A DNA stretch of 24,615 bases, taken from the IMG/VR virus record IMGVR_UViG_3300048929_000261, positions 1 through 24,615 of that record. The stretch is one strand, 5' to 3'. Origin of the DNA: a virus. Positions 3,437 to 24,176 of the stretch are shown here, one piece after another. The position numbers and the translations under genes were made by a program. Position 1 is the stretch's first letter. Each line of letters begins with the position of its first letter. The notes beneath the pieces were generated by a model. The model was not told where the DNA came from. It did no database searches and saw only the letters and a program-made list of their open reading frames with translations.

Positions 3437-4719
3437 TTAAATAGCCGCCGGGTGTCCGACAATTTCCGCTCGCAGGCCGCAATGATCTGCTCGTCGAGCG
3501 ATCCCACCAGCACTACGAAGCGGGTGAACTTCGGCTCGGGGGAGTTCATGTTGAAGATACGCGAGCGAGCCTGCTCGTTTTCATCCCCCACCCAACTTTG
3601 TTCGACGAACATGACGTCGTTCGCGGCGCTGAAGTCGAGGCCGACGCCCATCGCCGTGAGCTGCCCGACGACGACCCGGCATTTCGGATCGGTCATGAAG
3701 CGCTGCTTGATGCGTTGCTTCCTGGCGTCGGTGGTGCGGCCGTCGAAGGCCTCAACCCCAAAGTCTTTCAGCCCGCGCCGGAGCGCGTCGATCACGTCGT
3801 GATGGTAGGCGAACAGAACGATCTTCGAGCCGGGCTCGGCTTTCAGTTCCTCAGTCACGAGGTCGATCACACCTGGGACCTTCGCCAGGCCGAACGTTCG
3901 GCGCAGGCCGGCGACGTGCTTCTCCTGCCGGGCAAGGGCCTTCAGCGGATTCGACGATTGCATTGCCTGCGCCACGAGGCGACCTTGCTCGGACTGCATA
4001 AGCGAGTCCAGCTCGCGCTTGTCGGTCTGGTTGGCGCGCACGTAGACCTTTGAAGGCGGCAACATATCGCGCCCGAACACGCTGGTGCGCGTACGGCGAA
4101 TCACGAAGTCGGCCAGCTTTTGCTTCAGTTCTTTGTAGTTCTTCGAGCCGGCGATCTTCACTCCGAACGGCGTGTTGATCATGCGGCAGTATCGGTCGCG
4201 GAACGTCGACCAACTCATCGGCTTGCCGCGGCCGTTGTCGATCAACTCCGGTGCGAGCGCCCGGAGCATCGGCCACAACTCAGTGGGGTTGTTCGGCATC
4301 GGGGTGCCGGTCAGGCAGAACACGTTGGTCGCGAACTCGGCGAGCCCGCCGATCTTGTCGCATAGCGTGCCGTAGACGGCCTTAGTCCTGCCGGTCGATC
4401 GTTCTTTGCAGTAGTGGGCCTCGTCGACGATCAGCACATACTTCTTGCCGCGCACCACCCGAAGCACCGAGCCCGCTTTGTTGTAGCTGACGATGATCGC
4501 CCACCACCCCGCCTTTCGAAACTCCAGGATCGCTTCGCGCCATGACTCTTTGACGGCGGCCGGGCATACTACCACAACCAGCTTGGCGTCCACCAAGTCT
4601 GCACCATGAATGGCCACGTTCGTTTTGCCCACCCGCGGCTCGTGCCCGACGAGCGTAGCGAACCGGCGCGAGACATACTGGCCGTCTTCGCGCTGGTAGT
4701 CCCGGAGTTCTCTTGCCAT
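3433..4719 (-). CDS. SNF2-like superfamily 2 DNA helicase/ATPase
   Basis: A 428-residue helicase with motif I PRVGKT (28-33), motif II DEAH (99-102), motif III LTGTP (136-140), a motif V region GVGLDFSAAND and motif VI QARSR (about 383-387). This is the compact SNF2 layout common in phage replication modules, where the ATPase is thought to remodel replication or recombination intermediates. Motif I reads EPRVGKT rather than the usual MGxGKT, a mild variant. The ATG at 4719 overlaps the upstream TGA (TGATG). Neighbours are a RuvC-like resolvase upstream and a RecB-like nuclease downstream, which supports a recombination-dependent replication role. Confidence 0.88.
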   Translation of the reverse strand: MARELRDYQREDGQYVSRRFATLVGHEPRVGKTNVAIHGADLVDAKLVVVVCPAAVKESWREAILEFRKAGWWAIIVSYNKAGSVLRVVRGKKYVLIVDEAHYCKERSTGRTKAVYGTLCDKIGGLAEFATNVFCLTGTPMPNNPTELWPMLRALAPELIDNGRGKPMSWSTFRDRYCRMINTPFGVKIAGSKNYKELKQKLADFVIRRTRTSVFGRDMLPPSKVYVRANQTDKRELDSLMQSEQGRLVAQAMQSSNPLKALARQEKHVAGLRRTFGLAKVPGVIDLVTEELKAEPGSKIVLFAYHHDVIDALRRGLKDFGVEAFDGRTTDARKQRIKQRFMTDPKCRVVVGQLTAMGVGLDFSAANDVMFVEQSWVGDENEQARSRIFNMNSPEPKFTRFVVLVGSLDEQIIAACERKLSDTRRLFN

Positions 4720-4904: not shown

Positions 4905-5176
4905 GCTGCACCCTTGATCTCGTAGTGGCCCGGTACGCACTTGACCCGCCCCACACGCCACGACGGCTTGAAGTAGATCGGGTGCTTGACCTTCCAGTCG
5001 GCCAGTCCCAGCTGCGCGTGGATCATGCAGCTCATGAAGTCGACGTTCGGGTCCATGTCCGAGCTGGTGACGATCTCTTCGACGCGCGCCTCTTCGGCGG
5101 TACAATCCCGGTCGGGCGCGATGGTAGGTTGCTCGACCATCATGTGGCACATCACGGCGACGACAGTGACGATCAT
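4901..5176 (-). CDS. hypothetical protein with hydrophobic N-terminus (91 aa)
   Basis: The product starts MIVTVVAVMCHMMVEQPTI. A short hydrophobic stretch could be a signal peptide or weak anchor. There are five cysteines, including the C in VMCHM, DRDC, MSC and VKC. The C-terminus (HPIYFKPSWRVGRVKCVPGH) looks beta-rich. The start overlaps the upstream stop (ATGA), and the stop overlaps the next ATG. If exported, the cysteines could form disulphides; if cytoplasmic, they could bind metal. No family was recognised. Confidence 0.65.
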   Translation of the reverse strand: MIVTVVAVMCHMMVEQPTIAPDRDCTAEEARVEEIVTSSDMDPNVDFMSCMIHAQLGLADWKVKHPIYFKPSWRVGRVKCVPGHYEIKGAA

Positions 5177-5361: not shown

Positions 5362-5591
5362 AGCTTCCTCCTGAGAATCGAAACGTGCTTGCTGACCACG
5401 GTGTTCTCGCAGTGGTCGGGTGAGATGTAATCGAGCGTGGCGCACGTGATGCAGCCCCAGCGCTTGCCGCGCTCACACGCCCGTGCCGCGCGCAGCGAAA
5501 TCGTCTCGTCGGGATAGCCGCCGAACAGCGCGTTGATAATCTGGTCGAGCGCGACCAAAAGGTTGAATACGTATCGCCAGACGCGCTTCAC
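5358..5591 (-). CDS. conserved phage hypothetical protein (77 aa)
   Basis: The protein begins VKRVWRYVFNLLVALDQIIN and continues FGGYPDETISLRAARACERG, then a Cys segment (WGCITCATLDYISPDHC). Proteins with the LLxALDQxxNxxxGGxPDETxSxR pattern are common in proteobacterial phages and have no assigned function; the four cysteines and one histidine suggest metal binding. The start is GTG, overlapping the RuvC-like gene stop as GTGA. The hydrophobic segment at 8-20 could be membrane-associated. Confidence 0.75.
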   Translation of the reverse strand: MKRVWRYVFNLLVALDQIINALFGGYPDETISLRAARACERGKRWGCITCATLDYISPDHCENTVVSKHVSILRRKL

Positions 5592-11066: not shown

Positions 11067-11093
11067 GCCGCCCTCCGGGGCGGCTTTTCTTTT
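11067..11093 (+). terminator. rho-independent terminator
   Basis: GCCGCCC (11067-11073), loop TCCG, GGGCGGC (11078-11084), then TTTTCTTTT. This is a classical terminator 38 bases after the primase-helicase stop codon. Confidence 0.85.
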
Positions 11094-11338
11094 CCTTCCG
11101 GGCGGAAGGAAGGCCGGAAGGAATGCCGGAAGGAATAGGTTTAAGTCATTGATTTCATTGAGGTGAGTCGGAAGGAATAGAAACGGAAGGAATAGCGGAA
11201 GGAATGGAAGGATTGAAAGGCCGCGAGTGGAAGGAAAGGCGGCGGATCATCTTATTGAATGTGCAGTGCTTTTCGGTTTCTTCCTTCCGATCTTTTCCTT
11301 CCATTCCTTCCACTCTCAGGCCCTACGCCTTTCCTTCC
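11092..11338. repeat. GGAAGGA iteron-like array (candidate origin)
   Basis: Eight direct GGAAGGA copies begin near 11104, 11116, 11128, 11170, 11185, 11197, 11206 and 11229, often as CGGAAGGAATAG. At least five inverted copies (TTCCTTCC) lie near 11092, 11281, 11296, 11303 and 11331. Between the two sets is an AT-richer stretch (11238-11280). There is no gene on either strand. Clustered short direct repeats next to a replication initiator gene, with an AT-rich interval, are what an iteron origin looks like; binding by the primase-helicase is inference. The array is followed by a CACCCCC/GGGGGTG hairpin (11343-11359). Confidence 0.6.
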
Positions 11339-11401
11339 ACACCACCCCCGTAGGGGGTGTGGAGGGAATAGGCAACGCGTCTGGAAGGCGGTTGTCGTGA
11401 C

Positions 11402-11458
11402 GTCGATCAGTCGATTGGTCGGGTAGTCGGTCAGTCGATTGGTCGATTGGTCGGTCAG
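11402..11458. repeat. TCGATTGGTC short tandem repeats
   Basis: TCGATTGGTC occurs at 11411-11420, 11435-11444 and 11443-11452, with related units GTCGATCAG, AGTCGGTCAG and GGTCGGTCAG around them. They form a second short repeat family right after the GGAAGGA array and before the promoter at 11492. This could be a second binding site set in the same origin or an operator cluster. Confidence 0.55.
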
Positions 11459-11491
11459 CCTGACAGCCAGGATCATGGTGGGGAGATTTAA

Positions 11492-15295: not shown

Positions 15296-15329
15296 AAAGA
15301 AAAAGCCGCTGCGATCGGATCACAGCGGC
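15296..15329 (-). terminator. second leftward terminator
   Basis: On the minus strand GCCGCTG pairs with CAGCGGC around an 11-base loop (15305-15329), and TTTTTCTTT follows. It backs up the terminator at 15331-15363. The two share the GCCGCTG/CAGCGGC stem, so one is probably a copy of the other. Confidence 0.8.
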
Positions 15330-15330
15330 A

Positions 15331-15363
15331 AATAAAAAAGCCGCTGCGAATTGTCGCAGCGGC
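15331..15363 (-). terminator. first leftward terminator
   Basis: On the minus strand GCCGCTGCGA and TCGCAGCGGC form a perfect 10-bp stem with a 4-base loop (15340-15363), followed by TTTTTTATT. This is a strong end to the accessory operon at 15403-18616. Confidence 0.88.
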
Positions 15364-15402: not shown

Positions 15403-15507
15403 TCATGGCGGTTCGATAACTACCGAATCGCCCTCGCCGCTGGAAGCGGCGCATGGTGGGAACGATGCGAGCGCAAAGCACGTCATGGCGTATTCGCGGT
15501 TTGTCAT
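15403..15507 (-). CDS. 34-residue hypothetical protein
   Basis: The product begins MTNREYAMTCFALASFPPCA and ends GDSVVIEPP. GGAAAG lies about 10 bases before the ATG, which is 19 bases after the previous stop. It is the last gene before the tandem terminators. The N-terminal half is moderately hydrophobic, with two cysteines. No family was recognised. Confidence 0.5.
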   Translation of the reverse strand: MTNREYAMTCFALASFPPCAASSGEGDSVVIEPP

Positions 15508-15526: not shown

Positions 15527-15730
15527 CTAGTTGGCTACGCGCGTAGCGATTTTGTCAATTAGTTTACCGTCGCGTTCCCATACCTTGGCCGCCGCACTGT
15601 CTTGCCAATTGGAGCGCAAGTGAATCGCTTTTTCGAAACAAACGTTCCCGATTGCGCTAAGCACGCCTTTAAGACCGTGCTTGTCGATTAGCGACTCCAG
15701 CTCGTTTTGCATTTCGGTATTGTCAGACAT
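15527..15730 (-). CDS. small hypothetical protein (67 aa)
   Basis: The product begins MSDNTEMQNELESLIDKHGL and continues KGVLSAIGNVCFEKAIHL; it is mainly helical. Small phage proteins of this type (LESLIDKHGLxxVLxAIxxVCxEKAxHL) are found in early accessory regions. The start is set by the AAAGGATCAAACGCCA leader directly before the ATG; an upstream in-frame ATG would translate through the ribozyme at 15753-15807 and is rejected. Its mRNA is predicted to begin at the hammerhead cleavage site. Confidence 0.75.
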   Translation of the reverse strand: MSDNTEMQNELESLIDKHGLKGVLSAIGNVCFEKAIHLRSNWQDSAAAKVWERDGKLIDKIATRVAN

Positions 15731-15752: not shown

Positions 15753-15807
15753 GGACTCGTCAGTAGCGGCACAACCGCTAGACCGCGCGCTAGGCGCGGT
15801 TTCGTCC
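15753..15807 (-). ncRNA. type II hammerhead ribozyme, copy 1
   Basis: Minus-strand order: stem II strand GGAC (15807-15804), GAA (15803-15801), stem III ACCGCGC/GCGCGGT with loop CTAGC, C17 (15781), stem I TAGCGG/CCGCTA with loop TTGTG, core CTGACGA (15763-15757), stem II strand GTCC (15756-15753). All conserved core bases of the hammerhead are present. Predicted cleavage is between 15781 and 15780. The first G is also the last base of the upstream TAG stop codon. The next gene's ribosome binding site follows after six bases. Confidence 0.92.
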
Positions 15808-16058
15808 TAGCAGGAAACGATGGCGAGCCAATCTCCGGGTTTGCCTATGTACATCGTTCCTGCGTTGCTTATCTGGCATGCCTTGACGCGATACCACCGG
15901 CCTTGCCATTTCACCTCATAAGGCGTCGGTAACGCACGCCCGTAACCGGACGTGGTGCGGCCTTTGCGCGGCTCTTGGCTGACGCGGTGCGCGACCTTGA
16001 CGGTCTGGCGAGGCTCATTGCCTTTTCCGAAGTGCAAATAAAACTGTTCCGGTGTCAT
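15807..16058 (-). CDS. hypothetical phage protein (83 aa)
   Basis: The protein begins MTPEQFYLHFGKGNEPRQTV. It has a basic middle (RKGRTTSGYGRA) and a beta-like C-terminus (YEVKWQGRWYRVKACQ, then GDWLAIVSC). The ATG overlaps the previous TGA (ATGA) with GAGAGGGG just upstream, so these two genes have no ribozyme between them. The stop codon runs into hammerhead copy 1. No family was recognised. Confidence 0.7.
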   Translation of the reverse strand: MTPEQFYLHFGKGNEPRQTVKVAHRVSQEPRKGRTTSGYGRALPTPYEVKWQGRWYRVKACQISNAGTMYIGKPGDWLAIVSC

Positions 16059-16264
16059 CGTTCGCCCCTCTCGCGGTTGTCCAACCGACCTTCGCAGGAA
16101 CAAAGGTGCATCAAGCATTCGCCTAGCTCTTTCGCGGCTTCGGAGTATGTGAGGCCTATGCAAACCTGCTTGCCATACTCAACCGTGAATCGATTGCGGC
16201 CAGTTTGCCAAAGTCGAATTGGGAATGACCCGTTTATTTCTTCAAAACACAGCGTTCGTTTCAT
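16055..16264 (-). CDS. hypothetical phage protein (69 aa)
   Basis: The product begins MKRTLCFEEINGSFPIRLWQ. It has a beta-hairpin-like run (NRFTVEYGKQVCIGLTYSEA), then a helix with two cysteines (LGECLMHLCSCEGR). The start is fixed by the AAAGGAAACAACGCCA leader; longer readings would cross hammerhead copy 2. It looks like a small globular early phage protein. No function is assigned. Confidence 0.72.
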   Translation of the reverse strand: MKRTLCFEEINGSFPIRLWQTGRNRFTVEYGKQVCIGLTYSEAAKELGECLMHLCSCEGRLDNRERGER

Positions 16265-16286
16265 TGGCGTTGTTTCCTTTCGATTG

Positions 16287-16340
16287 GGACTCGTCAGTAG
16301 CGGCACAACCGCTAGACCGCGCCAGCGCGCGGTTTCGTCC
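16287..16340 (-). ncRNA. type II hammerhead ribozyme, copy 2
   Basis: Minus-strand order: GGAC (16340-16337), GAA, stem III ACCGCGC/GCGCGGT with a four-base GCTG loop, C17 (16315), stem I TAGCGG/CCGCTA with loop TTGTG, CTGACGA (16297-16291), GTCC (16290-16287). Predicted cleavage is between 16315 and 16314. It starts immediately after the TAA of the upstream gene (16341-16343), with no spacer, and ends just before CAATCGAAAGGA, the next ribosome binding site. Confidence 0.93.
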
Positions 16341-16619
16341 TTACCACCGCGCGTAGTCTGGCAAAGACTCGAAAATGTTGTCGCATATGCCTTCATACAA
16401 AAGAGCGGCGTGGAGATCGCCACGCGCGCGGCACTGCATCGCGGTTGCCTTGTTAGAAGCGTAGTTCGCCAAAGCACGCGCGGCCGTTACTGTCCCCTCG
16501 CCAGTGCGACCGAATAGCTCGACTCGATTCGCTTTGGTTGCGCGACTGTATTTGCTCCAAAACGTCATGAGTTCATCCGCGTGCATCGCGTCCAAATTCA
16601 ACGTGTCAATAATTGGCAT
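16341..16619 (-). CDS. conserved phage protein, LANYAxNKATAM type (92 aa)
   Basis: The protein begins MPIIDTLNLDAMHADELMTF and contains WSKYSRATKANRVELFG, ANYASNKATAMQCRARGD and a C-terminal YEGICDNIFESLPDYARW. This helical family is recurrent in phages and prophages and has no assigned function. Position and length match those relatives as far as memory allows. It is flanked on both sides by hammerhead ribozymes (copies 2 and 3), so its mRNA is predicted to be released as a monocistronic unit. Confidence 0.78.
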   Translation of the reverse strand: MPIIDTLNLDAMHADELMTFWSKYSRATKANRVELFGRTGEGTVTAARALANYASNKATAMQCRARGDLHAALLYEGICDNIFESLPDYARW

Positions 16620-16640
16620 GGCGTTGTTTCCTTTCGATTG

Positions 16641-16694
16641 GGACTCGTCAGTAGCGGCACAACCGCTATACGGGGCCGAAACCCCGTTTCGTCC
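16641..16694 (-). ncRNA. type II hammerhead ribozyme, copy 3
   Basis: Minus-strand order: GGAC (16694-16691), GAA, stem III ACGGGG/CCCCGT with loop TTTCGG, A17 (16669), stem I TAGCGG/CCGCTA with loop TTGTG, CTGACGA (16651-16645), GTCC (16644-16641). Stem III has a different sequence from copies 1 and 2 but is still fully paired, and H17 is A, which hammerheads allow. Predicted cleavage is between 16669 and 16668. The first G is the last base of the upstream TAG. Confidence 0.92.
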
Positions 16695-16999
16695 TATTCG
16701 GAATTCATGACGCGCGCGGCGGCGCCTGCACCGTATCGGTGCTCGAAAGCTTCGCAGTTCGTATCAGTGGGGCTTGCGCGCAACTCGACGATGTCGCGGT
16801 AGTCAATGTCCGGCCATCGTTCGTCTATGACGACGCCCATGGGCGGAATGGTCACGATGGATTCTTCGTCAACCCATTGCGGCCATATGTGCGCGTCGCC
16901 ATGTGCGAACGCGGCGCCAGGTACGATGGCTTGCAAGCTGGCGAGAATGCGAAGCACTGCGAGCCGTCTTTTACGTTGCTGCTTTTTGGTCATTGTCAT
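16694..16999 (-). CDS. hypothetical protein with possible signal peptide (101 aa)
   Basis: The product begins MTMTKKQQRKRRLAVLRILA. A basic n-region, a hydrophobic stretch (LAVLRILASLQAIVPGAA) and an AFA-HG junction near residue 32 look like a signal peptide or an N-terminal anchor. The rest is acidic (VDEESIVTIPPMGVVIDERW). If exported it would be a periplasmic phage protein. AAAGGG lies before the ATG. An operator-like element and CCC/GGG pairing potential surround the ribosome binding site. No family was recognised. Confidence 0.68.
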   Translation of the reverse strand: MTMTKKQQRKRRLAVLRILASLQAIVPGAAFAHGDAHIWPQWVDEESIVTIPPMGVVIDERWPDIDYRDIVELRASPTDTNCEAFEHRYGAGAAARVMNSE

Positions 17000-17012
17000 T
17001 TCCCTTTGTGTG

Positions 17013-17025
17013 GTTAGGTGACACG
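17013..17025 (+). promoter_or_regulatory. operator-like element GTTAGGTGACACG
   Basis: Identical over 13 bases to the site at 6849-6861. In the direction of the downstream minus-strand gene it reads CGTGTCACCTAAC. It fills most of the 28-base gap between two genes and begins right after the TAA stop, the same position that hammerheads take in neighbouring gaps. In RNA, CCC-GTGT can pair with ACAC-AAA-GGG and would cover the ribosome binding site. Confidence 0.55.
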
Positions 17026-17027
17026 GG

Positions 17028-17540
17028 TTACACTTCGCGCAGCATTTCTTCCAGCGCGCGACCGATAGTAGTGTCGGGAATGTCGCAAAAGCCATATCGG
17101 CCATATTGCCAAACCGGCTCGCTAGAAAGCCAGTGGTAACGGGAGCGAACGTCCATGGCCATTCGCACTTTTTCGCGCGGGGAAAGGCTATCCCAATAGT
17201 CGGCGGATTCGTTCCACTCCAATTCCGACCAATGGTCCTCATTTATGGCGGGGTAATCAGCGAGCTTGGCTTTGATATCGTCGGCAATTTCGAGCGCCTT
17301 GGAATCATCTTGATGAATGGCGATCCATTCCACCCACCCTACCGCCCAATGAGATTCGCGAACTACCTGGACCGTATCGGACTCGCCTCCGATTGCTTTG
17401 AGCATGCATTCGAAGTTAGAGCGTTCAAGTGCGTCGCTATCGCGTGACTGGCCGACTCCGCTTGAATAGTAAGCCGGCCAAACGGCGCCGGTATAGTTGC
17501 TTGGCATAGTCCAGAGCTTCAAGTGCTTTGGTTCATACAT
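17028..17540 (-). CDS. conserved phage hypothetical protein (170 aa)
   Basis: The protein begins MYEPKHLKLWTMPSNYTGAV. It has SNFECMLKAIGG, VVRESHWAVGWVEWIAIHQD and a C-terminal half with DIKAKLADYPAINEDHWSEL and SADYWDSLSPREKVRMAM. This plan (ALEIADDIxxxLxDYPxxxEDHxSELEW...YWxxLSxREKV) recurs in uncharacterised phage proteins. The ribosome binding leader is CGAAAGGTATAACGCC. The operator-like element lies between it and the upstream gene. Confidence 0.8.
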   Translation of the reverse strand: MYEPKHLKLWTMPSNYTGAVWPAYYSSGVGQSRDSDALERSNFECMLKAIGGESDTVQVVRESHWAVGWVEWIAIHQDDSKALEIADDIKAKLADYPAINEDHWSELEWNESADYWDSLSPREKVRMAMDVRSRYHWLSSEPVWQYGRYGFCDIPDTTIGRALEEMLREV

Positions 17541-17557
17541 GGCGTTATACCTTTCGA

Positions 17558-17596
17558 GTTGTGAGGTGACACAACTTACAAGCTAGATAGCTTGTA
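17558..17596. promoter_or_regulatory. two adjacent palindromes with operator-like element
   Basis: GTTGTG-AGGTGA-CACAAC (17558-17575) is a perfect 6-6-6 palindrome and contains GTGAGGTGACACA (17561-17573), a member of the recurring element family. TACAAGCTA-GA-TAGCTTGTA (17577-17596) is a perfect 9-bp palindrome that includes the stop codon of the upstream gene. Together they fill the intercistronic gap. Confidence 0.55.
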
Positions 17597-22436: not shown

Positions 22437-24176
22437 ATGGCAATCGCAGTAGCGTCTACCAGCAACACGCCGAGTCTCGGCACGAGAGTCAATACTACGA
22501 TCACGGCACCGTCCGGTATCACGGACGGTGAACTGCTTGTCGCAGAATTGCACGTCGGCGATCTGTCAGCTCTTCCGGCGCTCGCGGTTACGCCGCCCGC
22601 CGGTTGGTTTGAGGCGCCTAACAGTCCGGCGGCAATTTCTGCGAGCGGCTACACCATCGCTATCCACACCTACCTCAAGGTGGCATCGGGGGAGAGTGGG
22701 GACTACACGTTCACCCACACTTCGGCCGATACCGAAGGGTTTATGTACAGGCTAACCGGCGCCGATCCGGTGAACCCGCTCGACGTGACTCCCGTCGCGC
22801 AAGTCTCGATTGCCGGAAACGGCACGACGACGAACTACCCGTCAATTACGCCGATCACGAACGGCGCTTTTCTGATTTACGTCGAGTCTGTTTGGGACGC
22901 GGTTGGCGCTGGCGCGATATCGGGGACGACCCCGACCATTACAGCGCGGCGGACCGGCTCCATCAGCTTGATATCTGACGGCACGCAGACGACGGCGGGT
23001 GCGACAGGCGCCCGAACCCGAGTCAACGGAAACGGCGGCACAGGTCTGGATCACCCGTGGGCATCGTTTGTCCTCGCTATTCGACCGGCAACTGGCGCTT
23101 CCGCGATATCCGCTTCGGTCTCGTCGACCTTGGGCTCCTTGAACGCTTCTGCTTCAGGGACCGTGGCCAACAATGGAAGCGCAGCTAAGACGCTTGGCGC
23201 GCTCACCGCGTCGGCTCAGGCCGGCAATCCGGTAGCCGCCGCTGCAACGGCTACGATGGGGTCATTGCAGTCGGTAGCGGCTGCCGCTAATCCGATCACG
23301 GCCCAATCTTCGAATACGCTCGGTGTGCTGGTAGCGGCGGTGACCGCCACCCACCAGGTGGCCGGACAGGTTTCAGCTACGCTCGGTGCTCTCACCGTGT
23401 CGGGGCAAGCATCGCACGCGGTGACAGCCGCGGTAGCGGGGACGCTAGGCACACTGCAAAGCGGGGCAGTTGCTACCAACGCCGTAACGGCACAGGTCGC
23501 GAACACGCTAGGTCTATTGACCGTGTCGGCGCAGGCTACCGCGCCGATCCCTGGCGAGGTTTCGGCACAGGTCTCGGCCACTCTTGGGCCAATCTCTGCG
23601 TCCGCGCAGGCTTCGTCTCCAATAGCGGCGCAGAGCCCGGTTACGCTCGGCGCGCTTACTGCGTCGGCCGCAGCCGCGCATCCGGTTACGGCGCAGACCA
23701 CGGTCACGCTCGGAGCGCTTACTGCTTCGGCGGCAGCTTCGCATGCGGTAACAGGTCAGGCCGTAGCCACGCTCGGTGCGCTCACTGTGTCGGCGCAGGC
23801 TACCGTGCCGATACCCGGACAAATTGCAGCGCAGGTCGCGGCCACGCTTGGTAGCCTCAGTGCGTCGGCGACGGCTTCACATTCGGTGGCAGCCGCAGTT
23901 GCCGCCTCGCTCGGTGCTCTGACCACGTCGGCGAACGCTTCGCATCCCGACACAGCGCAGGTCGCGAGCACGCTCGGCGCTCTCACGGTCTCGGCCCACG
24001 CAGGTAACCCTGTGACTGCACAGAGCGTAAACGCACTCGACGCATTGACAGCAACTGGCACCGTGGAGGTGCCGGTAAAAGCGTTCGTTTCCGCTGCGCT
24101 TGAATCTCTGACCGTGAACGCTCGCGCACGTAACCACCCAAAGGCGGTTACCTCGGGCGCGTTCATGCTCATCTGA
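22437..24176 (+). CDS. repeat-rich tail fibre-like protein (579 aa)
   Basis: The N-terminal 225 residues are a fibre-head-like domain (ITAPSGITDGELLVAELHVG, VTPPAGWFEAPNSPAA), homologous in style to the start of the preceding protein. From about residue 226 to the end there are about 16 tandem units of roughly 21 residues built on TLGALTVSAQASHPVTAQVA. Two units are 25 residues long (with IPGEVSAQVS and IPGQIAAQVA). The repeat composition (Ala, Thr, Ser, Val, Leu) suggests a long beta-solenoid or triple-stranded fibre shaft. GAGGGGAAG lies before the ATG, and CCATTG/CAATGG can pair across the start codon. Variation in repeat number could change fibre length. Confidence 0.78.
   Translation: MAIAVASTSNTPSLGTRVNTTITAPSGITDGELLVAELHVGDLSALPALAVTPPAGWFEAPNSPAAISASGYTIAIHTYLKVASGESGDYTFTHTSADTEGFMYRLTGADPVNPLDVTPVAQVSIAGNGTTTNYPSITPITNGAFLIYVESVWDAVGAGAISGTTPTITARRTGSISLISDGTQTTAGATGARTRVNGNGGTGLDHPWASFVLAIRPATGASAISASVSSTLGSLNASASGTVANNGSAAKTLGALTASAQAGNPVAAAATATMGSLQSVAAAANPITAQSSNTLGVLVAAVTATHQVAGQVSATLGALTVSGQASHAVTAAVAGTLGTLQSGAVATNAVTAQVANTLGLLTVSAQATAPIPGEVSAQVSATLGPISASAQASSPIAAQSPVTLGALTASAAAAHPVTAQTTVTLGALTASAAASHAVTGQAVATLGALTVSAQATVPIPGQIAAQVAATLGSLSASATASHSVAAAVAASLGALTTSANASHPDTAQVASTLGALTVSAHAGNPVTAQSVNALDALTATGTVEVPVKAFVSAALESLTVNARARNHPKAVTSGAFMLI
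23100..24160 (+). repeat. about 16 tandem 63-bp coding repeats
   Basis: Within the fibre gene, units of about 63 bases (two of 75) repeat around a conserved ACGCTCGG-GCGCT core encoding TLGAL. Adjacent units differ by many synonymous and conservative changes, so the array is old, but it could still expand or shrink by recombination. Confidence 0.75.

Follow-up and report, generated by a model that had tools for sequence, protein, structure and literature searches.

Three type II hammerhead ribozymes (HHRs) lie in the spacers of one operon of small genes in an uncultured phage, and they probably serve as self-cleaving elements that punctuate its polycistronic transcript, a reading given a probability of roughly 0.78. 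The operon is part of a 24,615-base IMG/VR virus record, for which no end repeats are reported and which is referred to here, in its full length, as the window. HHR arrangements of this kind in phage operons have been described since 2011, when clustered HHRs were reported to flank prophage genes and processing of the transcripts to gene-length mRNAs was proposed (Perreault et al. 2011, PMC3088659). In that paper clustered HHRs from Agrobacterium, Azorhizobium and Clostridium (C. scindens) cleaved in vitro, those of Agrobacterium also in E. coli. The window resembles those arrays in having several HHRs per transcript around single small phage genes and in the processing proposed. It differs in that it comes from an uncultured phage with other genes, and in that placement relative to stop codons has been quantified here over several hundred clusters. 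No later work on type II HHR arrays in phages was found in the open-access literature, and the role of bacterial and phage hammerheads has been stated to be an open question in the field (PMC6155905).

The window encodes replication proteins (an exonuclease, a SNF2-type helicase, a RuvC-like resolvase, a primase-helicase and a dNMP kinase) and a tail-completion protein, and no tRNA genes were found in it. The ribozymes sit in the spacers of a minus-strand run of small ORFs without assigned function that extends from 18616 down to 15403. All three are on the same strand between ORFs of one predicted transcription unit, which is closed by two tandem, nearly identical rho-independent terminators (15305-15363, minus strand; individually 15363-15340 and 15329-15305). 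In the order of transcription a 99-aa ORF of no known family (16694-16993) precedes copy 1 (16641-16694), a 92-aa ORF (16341-16619) separates it from copy 2 (16287-16340), and copy 2 is followed by a 69-aa ORF (16055-16264) that overlaps, at an ATGA, the 83-aa ORF (15807-16058) upstream of copy 3 (15753-15807). The operon then ends with ORFs of 67 aa (15527-15730) and 34 aa (15403-15507), all of these features being on the minus strand. The 69-aa ORF has weak matches to phrog_36600 and phrog_6500 and the 83-aa ORF matches phrog_3436 (4.7e-10), all three of unknown function. Copy 1 is joined to the ATG of the next gene by a leader with the Shine-Dalgarno-like motif GAAAGGA (16620-16640, minus strand; CAATCGAAAGGAAACAACGCC); a leader of this type also stands behind copies 2 and 3 and, with no ribozyme, before further genes of the operon. 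Some spacers of the operon thus carry no HHR; the one at 17550-17580 (minus strand) has the hairpin AGTTGTG-TCACCT-CACAACT followed by a GAAAGG leader, and shares with that at 17002-17032 the sequence GTGTCACCT, in a small hairpin-like element before the leader. A nucleotide search with the operon against 50,697 phage records found no match, nor did an exact search for the stem I-core sequence in IMG/VR.

A preliminary description had placed the elements on the minus strand at 15807-15753, 16340-16287 and 16694-16641, and re-reading of the sequence bore it out in every detail of position and motif. Each copy has the order GGAC-GAA, stem III, H17, stem I, CTGACGA and GTCC. Stem I is TAGCGG/CCGCTA with the loop TTGTG in all three, stem III is ACCGCGC/GCGCGGT in two and ACGGGG/CCCCGT in one, and H17 is C, C and A respectively. 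The CTGACGA and GAA core is complete in every copy and H17 is not G in any; stems I, II and III are fully paired, I and III being closed by loops and the short, 4-bp stem II being open. The predicted cleavage positions had been counted correctly, at 16669/16668 in copy 1, 16315/16314 in copy 2 and 15781/15780 in copy 3. An H17 of A, as in copy 1, usually cleaves more slowly than C. The minimum-energy fold of each isolated segment is the exact three-stem hammerhead (-24.7, -26.1 and -24.0 kcal/mol; z-scores -2.2 to -2.6), and when copy 2 is folded with its native flanks stem II is unpaired in the minimum-energy structure. A structural motif defined as the core with a minimum of 5 bp in stems I and III and 3 bp in stem II occurred once in 300 first-order Markov windows searched on both strands, as against three times in the real window. 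Core, fold and an independent covariance model agree that these are type II HHRs in a phage operon.

The preliminary description had also read compensatory change among the three copies as strong evidence for a selected structure. The change in stem III is real, stem I is invariant, and the copies are probably duplicates of one unit and not three independent events, since they are 77-88% identical to the middle copy, used as reference, over 77 nt that include the leader up to the start codon, and since stem I does not vary. Independent variation of the stems is found in a related phage, L124, which has stem I TGGCCG/CGGCCA, changed on both sides, and in unrelated phages.

A covariance search with the Rfam type II family, which had been proposed as a check, gave a divided answer: all three copies fall below the RF02276 cut-off of 37 bits, in form the very outcome that the description had named as refuting it, matching over the full model at 23.1 (copy 1), 29.9 (copy 2) and 29.8 bits (copy 3), whereas an independent phage model recovers them at E values of 4.6e-18 to 1.2e-20. 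This model was built from 25 unrelated phage HHRs, with the window and L124 sequences left out, and scores copy 1 at 64.9 bits (E 7e-19), copy 2 at 70.3 bits (E 1e-20) and copy 3 at 62.5 bits (E 5e-18). The best remaining match in 91 kb, beyond the copies of the window and of L124, reaches 11.4 bits, and a search without filters for degenerate HHRs in other spacers of the window, L125, L126 and L411 found none above that score. Applied to 15 other phage loci, this model recovers 32 HHRs with E < 1e-12, most of them unlisted by Rfam at E <= 1; because none of these 32 comparable phage HHRs reaches 37 bits, the cut-off is insensitive for this group. It is a curation limit and not a defining feature of the ribozyme, and it fails to separate members from non-members here. 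The window copies share with RF02276 the order of core and stems, the open stem II and predicted cleavage after H17, and differ from it in scoring below the gathering score and in having a 4-bp stem II and a weak tail pseudoknot.

The distribution of related elements was surveyed by scanning IMG/VR for the core with each of three stem II sequences, the counts being of matches listed; to these were added a genome scan and relatives found by protein, and a stem test was applied. At least 523 HHRs in at least 366 clusters passed this test, and at least 495 HHRs are in at least 336 viral loci, the window included. Among the viral matches listed that were selected on the core only, stems I and III are in place in 157 of 166, 124 of 136 and 127 of 129 for the three stem II scans, and since these matches were chosen by their core the presence of both stems is independent evidence for the structure. 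A scan of bacterial and archaeal genomes gave 56 core matches in 257 Gb, by estimate about the number expected by chance, 28 of them with stems; the motif is mainly viral in the collections scanned. Alignment of the 25 unrelated phage HHRs gives a covariation score of 0.843, compared with 0.182 for shuffled and 0.10-0.14 for slid alignments, with pairing in 99.3% of the pair cells. A minimum stem length of 6 bp was among the selection criteria for these HHRs, which accounts in part for the high share of paired cells but not for the two-sided change of pairs. The catalytic core bases are invariant while the stems vary freely in the aligned phages, a comparison of sequences found with a pattern that included the core, though the window was chosen otherwise. 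At one locus (L024:1269-1324, minus strand) a type III hammerhead, scoring 46.7 bits and just below its cut-off, was seen together with a type II HHR.

The placement of the HHRs is strict, starting at the stop codon of the preceding gene. For 250 of the 347 clusters among the matches listed (72%), the end of the upstream stop codon falls between -2 and +6 nt relative to the start of stem II, as against 2.9% of random positions, with peaks at -1 (83 clusters), 0 (46) and +2 (56). In the window the TAG of the 99-aa ORF and that of the 83-aa ORF each overlap GGAC by their final G, and the TAA of the 92-aa ORF abuts GGAC. All copies are on one strand in each of the 89 multi-copy loci among the matches listed, with up to eight HHRs in a locus and a median spacing of 540 nt between neighbours, or about one or two genes. 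In the first set examined a start codon was found for 184 of 188 HHRs, at a median of 24 nt past stem II, most often preceded by a Shine-Dalgarno match. Strict strand and stop placement indicate a function in the transcript. Identity, fold, intergenic position, restriction to one strand, abutment on stop codons and conservation backed by covariation can be read from the sequence itself; the steps by which the elements may act are proposed as follows.

Each HHR would fold during transcription, once its 54-55 nt have been made, and would cut after H17, between the two closed hairpins. In the type II order both stems flanking the cut are closed hairpins, and a cut would therefore leave the upstream product with a 3'-terminal hairpin and the downstream one with a 5'-terminal hairpin. 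A few bases past the stop codon, the upstream product would terminate in hairpin III and carry a 2',3'-cyclic phosphate; the downstream product would carry a 5'-OH and open with hairpin I, its own Shine-Dalgarno sequence coming next. The operon RNA would in this way be divided into one- or two-gene mRNAs bounded by hairpins at the cut ends, which would probably set the stability and translation of the individual mRNAs. The operon and its relatives offer a concrete arrangement for such processing, in which ribozymes are fixed at stop codons and the predicted cut yields an mRNA with a hairpin end on either side.

The abutment on stop codons also raises the tentative possibility that the ribozyme reports translation, beyond punctuating the transcript. 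The footprint of a ribosome at a stop codon reaches about 10 nt past it, and a ribosome that has stopped next to GGACGAA would cover this 5' strand of the element, so that cleavage would wait for termination and track translation of the upstream gene. The sharp edge in the distribution is as such a switch would have it: the three peak positions of the stop (-1, 0 and +2) together account for 185 of the 347 clusters listed, the upstream ORF runs more than 2 nt into the element in only two (overlaps of up to 20 nt having been allowed), and all three window copies are at -1 or 0. The compact spacers of phages would, however, by themselves press an element against the preceding stop. Timing by the ribosome is compatible with punctuation and both could hold together; if the abutment is functional, translation termination would be linked to RNA self-cleavage.

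Contacts of the 3' tail were examined in the same clusters. A pseudoknot between loop I and the 3' tail has been described for type II HHRs, and in copies 1 and 2 of the window this pairing amounts to 3 bp (UUG/CAA) with a possible G-U, and is shorter in copy 3; over 366 clusters among the matches listed it is barely above the level of shuffled pairings. The conserved U of loop I and A before stem II are present in the window copies. In 45 of the 366 clusters among the matches listed (~12%) the tail has N'TCAG just past stem II, able to pair with CTGAN of the core, the N-N' pairs being T-A in 33, C-G in eight, T-G in two and A-T and C-A in one each. The pair is thus Watson-Crick in 42 of these 45 listed clusters (examples are L093, L030, L080, L138 and L178), and the covariation has a Fisher p of 2e-6 in a table of T/C by A/G, which is only indicative because the clusters are not fully independent. 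The N'TCAG tail is absent from the three window copies. Such pairing is a possible hairpin into which the RNA refolds after cleavage. A wider proposal, which is rather doubtful, joins it to the timing by the ribosome: phage type II HHRs would be translation-timed marks held open by the terminating ribosome, and in the ~12% with an N'UCAG tail CUGAN of the core would pair with this tail after the cut and so refold into a second 5' hairpin of the downstream mRNA, making cleavage irreversible or switchable. Stop-codon abutment and the covarying anti-core hairpin go beyond the accessible text of PMC3088659 and are fresh leads. A general tail hairpin with GAGUC of stem II was also considered and was rejected, as in a class-swap test own pairing clearly exceeded foreign pairing only for the GAGTCC class, where it was 14.8% compared with 1.4% for GAGAC but equal with GAGGT.

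The nearest relative, L124 (IMG/VR 3300017745_000004, a 63 kb contig), has a primase 65% identical to that of the window. The corresponding operon of L124 likewise contains three type II HHRs, which supports the punctuation reading; it shares the GAAAGG leader and has a relative, 62% identical, of the last ORF of 34 aa. Apart from the altered stem I, the genes and the spacers occupied are partly other ones. Both phages have an HHR in the spacer before the last two operon genes, and behind an orthologous 57-aa ORF L124 alone has one. This difference at an orthologous spacer, with the homogeneity of the L124 copies among themselves and the close similarity of the window copies, leader and stem I included, would suit a selfish or duplicating unit copied between spacers by gene conversion or otherwise without benefit to the phage. 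That is unlikely as the explanation of the elements, given that core and pairing have been retained across hundreds of diverged clusters, that strict strand and stop placement point to a function in the transcript, and that no mobile gene was seen near the window copies.

Another locus, L411, encodes a relative of the window 92-aa protein (57% identity), and no HHR was found within the 7.2 kb of it examined. In its spacers, at 4363-4390, 4935-4962 and 5389-5416, the position taken by a ribozyme in the window is occupied by a repeated hairpin, TTCTGGTTG-nnnn-CAACCAACTG. The intergenic slot is thus filled by various hairpin elements, the HHR being one, and a role at mRNA ends therefore fits better than a gene-specific role. 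Simple hairpins in this slot, in L411 as elsewhere in the window operon, could also mean that the HHRs are static structures, inactive hairpin pairs that stabilise 3' and 5' ends or act as spacers; this is very improbable, for the core is invariant while the stems vary, which a plain hairpin does not need, and relatives do cleave (PMC3088659). In principle, two neighbouring HHRs on one strand might excise the intervening RNA and let it form a circle, but a retrozyme- or viroid-like use to make RNA circles or mobile RNA can be set aside almost completely, as these HHRs are of type II and lie between ordinary genes with start and stop codons and as circular or spliced products of such arrays were sought and not found by Perreault et al. 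(PMC3088659). Self-cleavage that punctuates the transcript remains the preferred reading; weighed against it are the short loop I-tail pairing, the A at H17 of copy 1, the unpaired stem II of copy 2 in its native flanks and the absence of an HHR from some spacers, among them the one behind the 57-aa ORF.

Some further features were seen. A 63,072-base contig in the assembly of Streptomyces iakyrus NRRL ISP-5482 agrees with L124 at 100% over 5.9 kb, one of Phycicoccus jejuensis NRRL B-24460 does so at 100% over 4.6 kb, and a contig of an Eggerthellaceae MAG is 99.7% identical to it; the matching records of this phage are L124, L370, L367 and L408, and such contigs in unrelated assemblies are probably one phage contaminating libraries. 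Just past the primase-helicase gene of the window, a non-coding stretch (11086-11460) is crowded with GGAAGGAAT repeats in direct and inverted orientation, after which come repeats of GTCGATTGGTCG; it may be an origin of replication or a control region. On the plus strand, at 22437-24176, a tail-fibre-like ORF of 579 aa contains many imperfect repeats of the type TLGALTASAxAxHPVxAQ and has a tandem period of 63 bases at 23626-23798.
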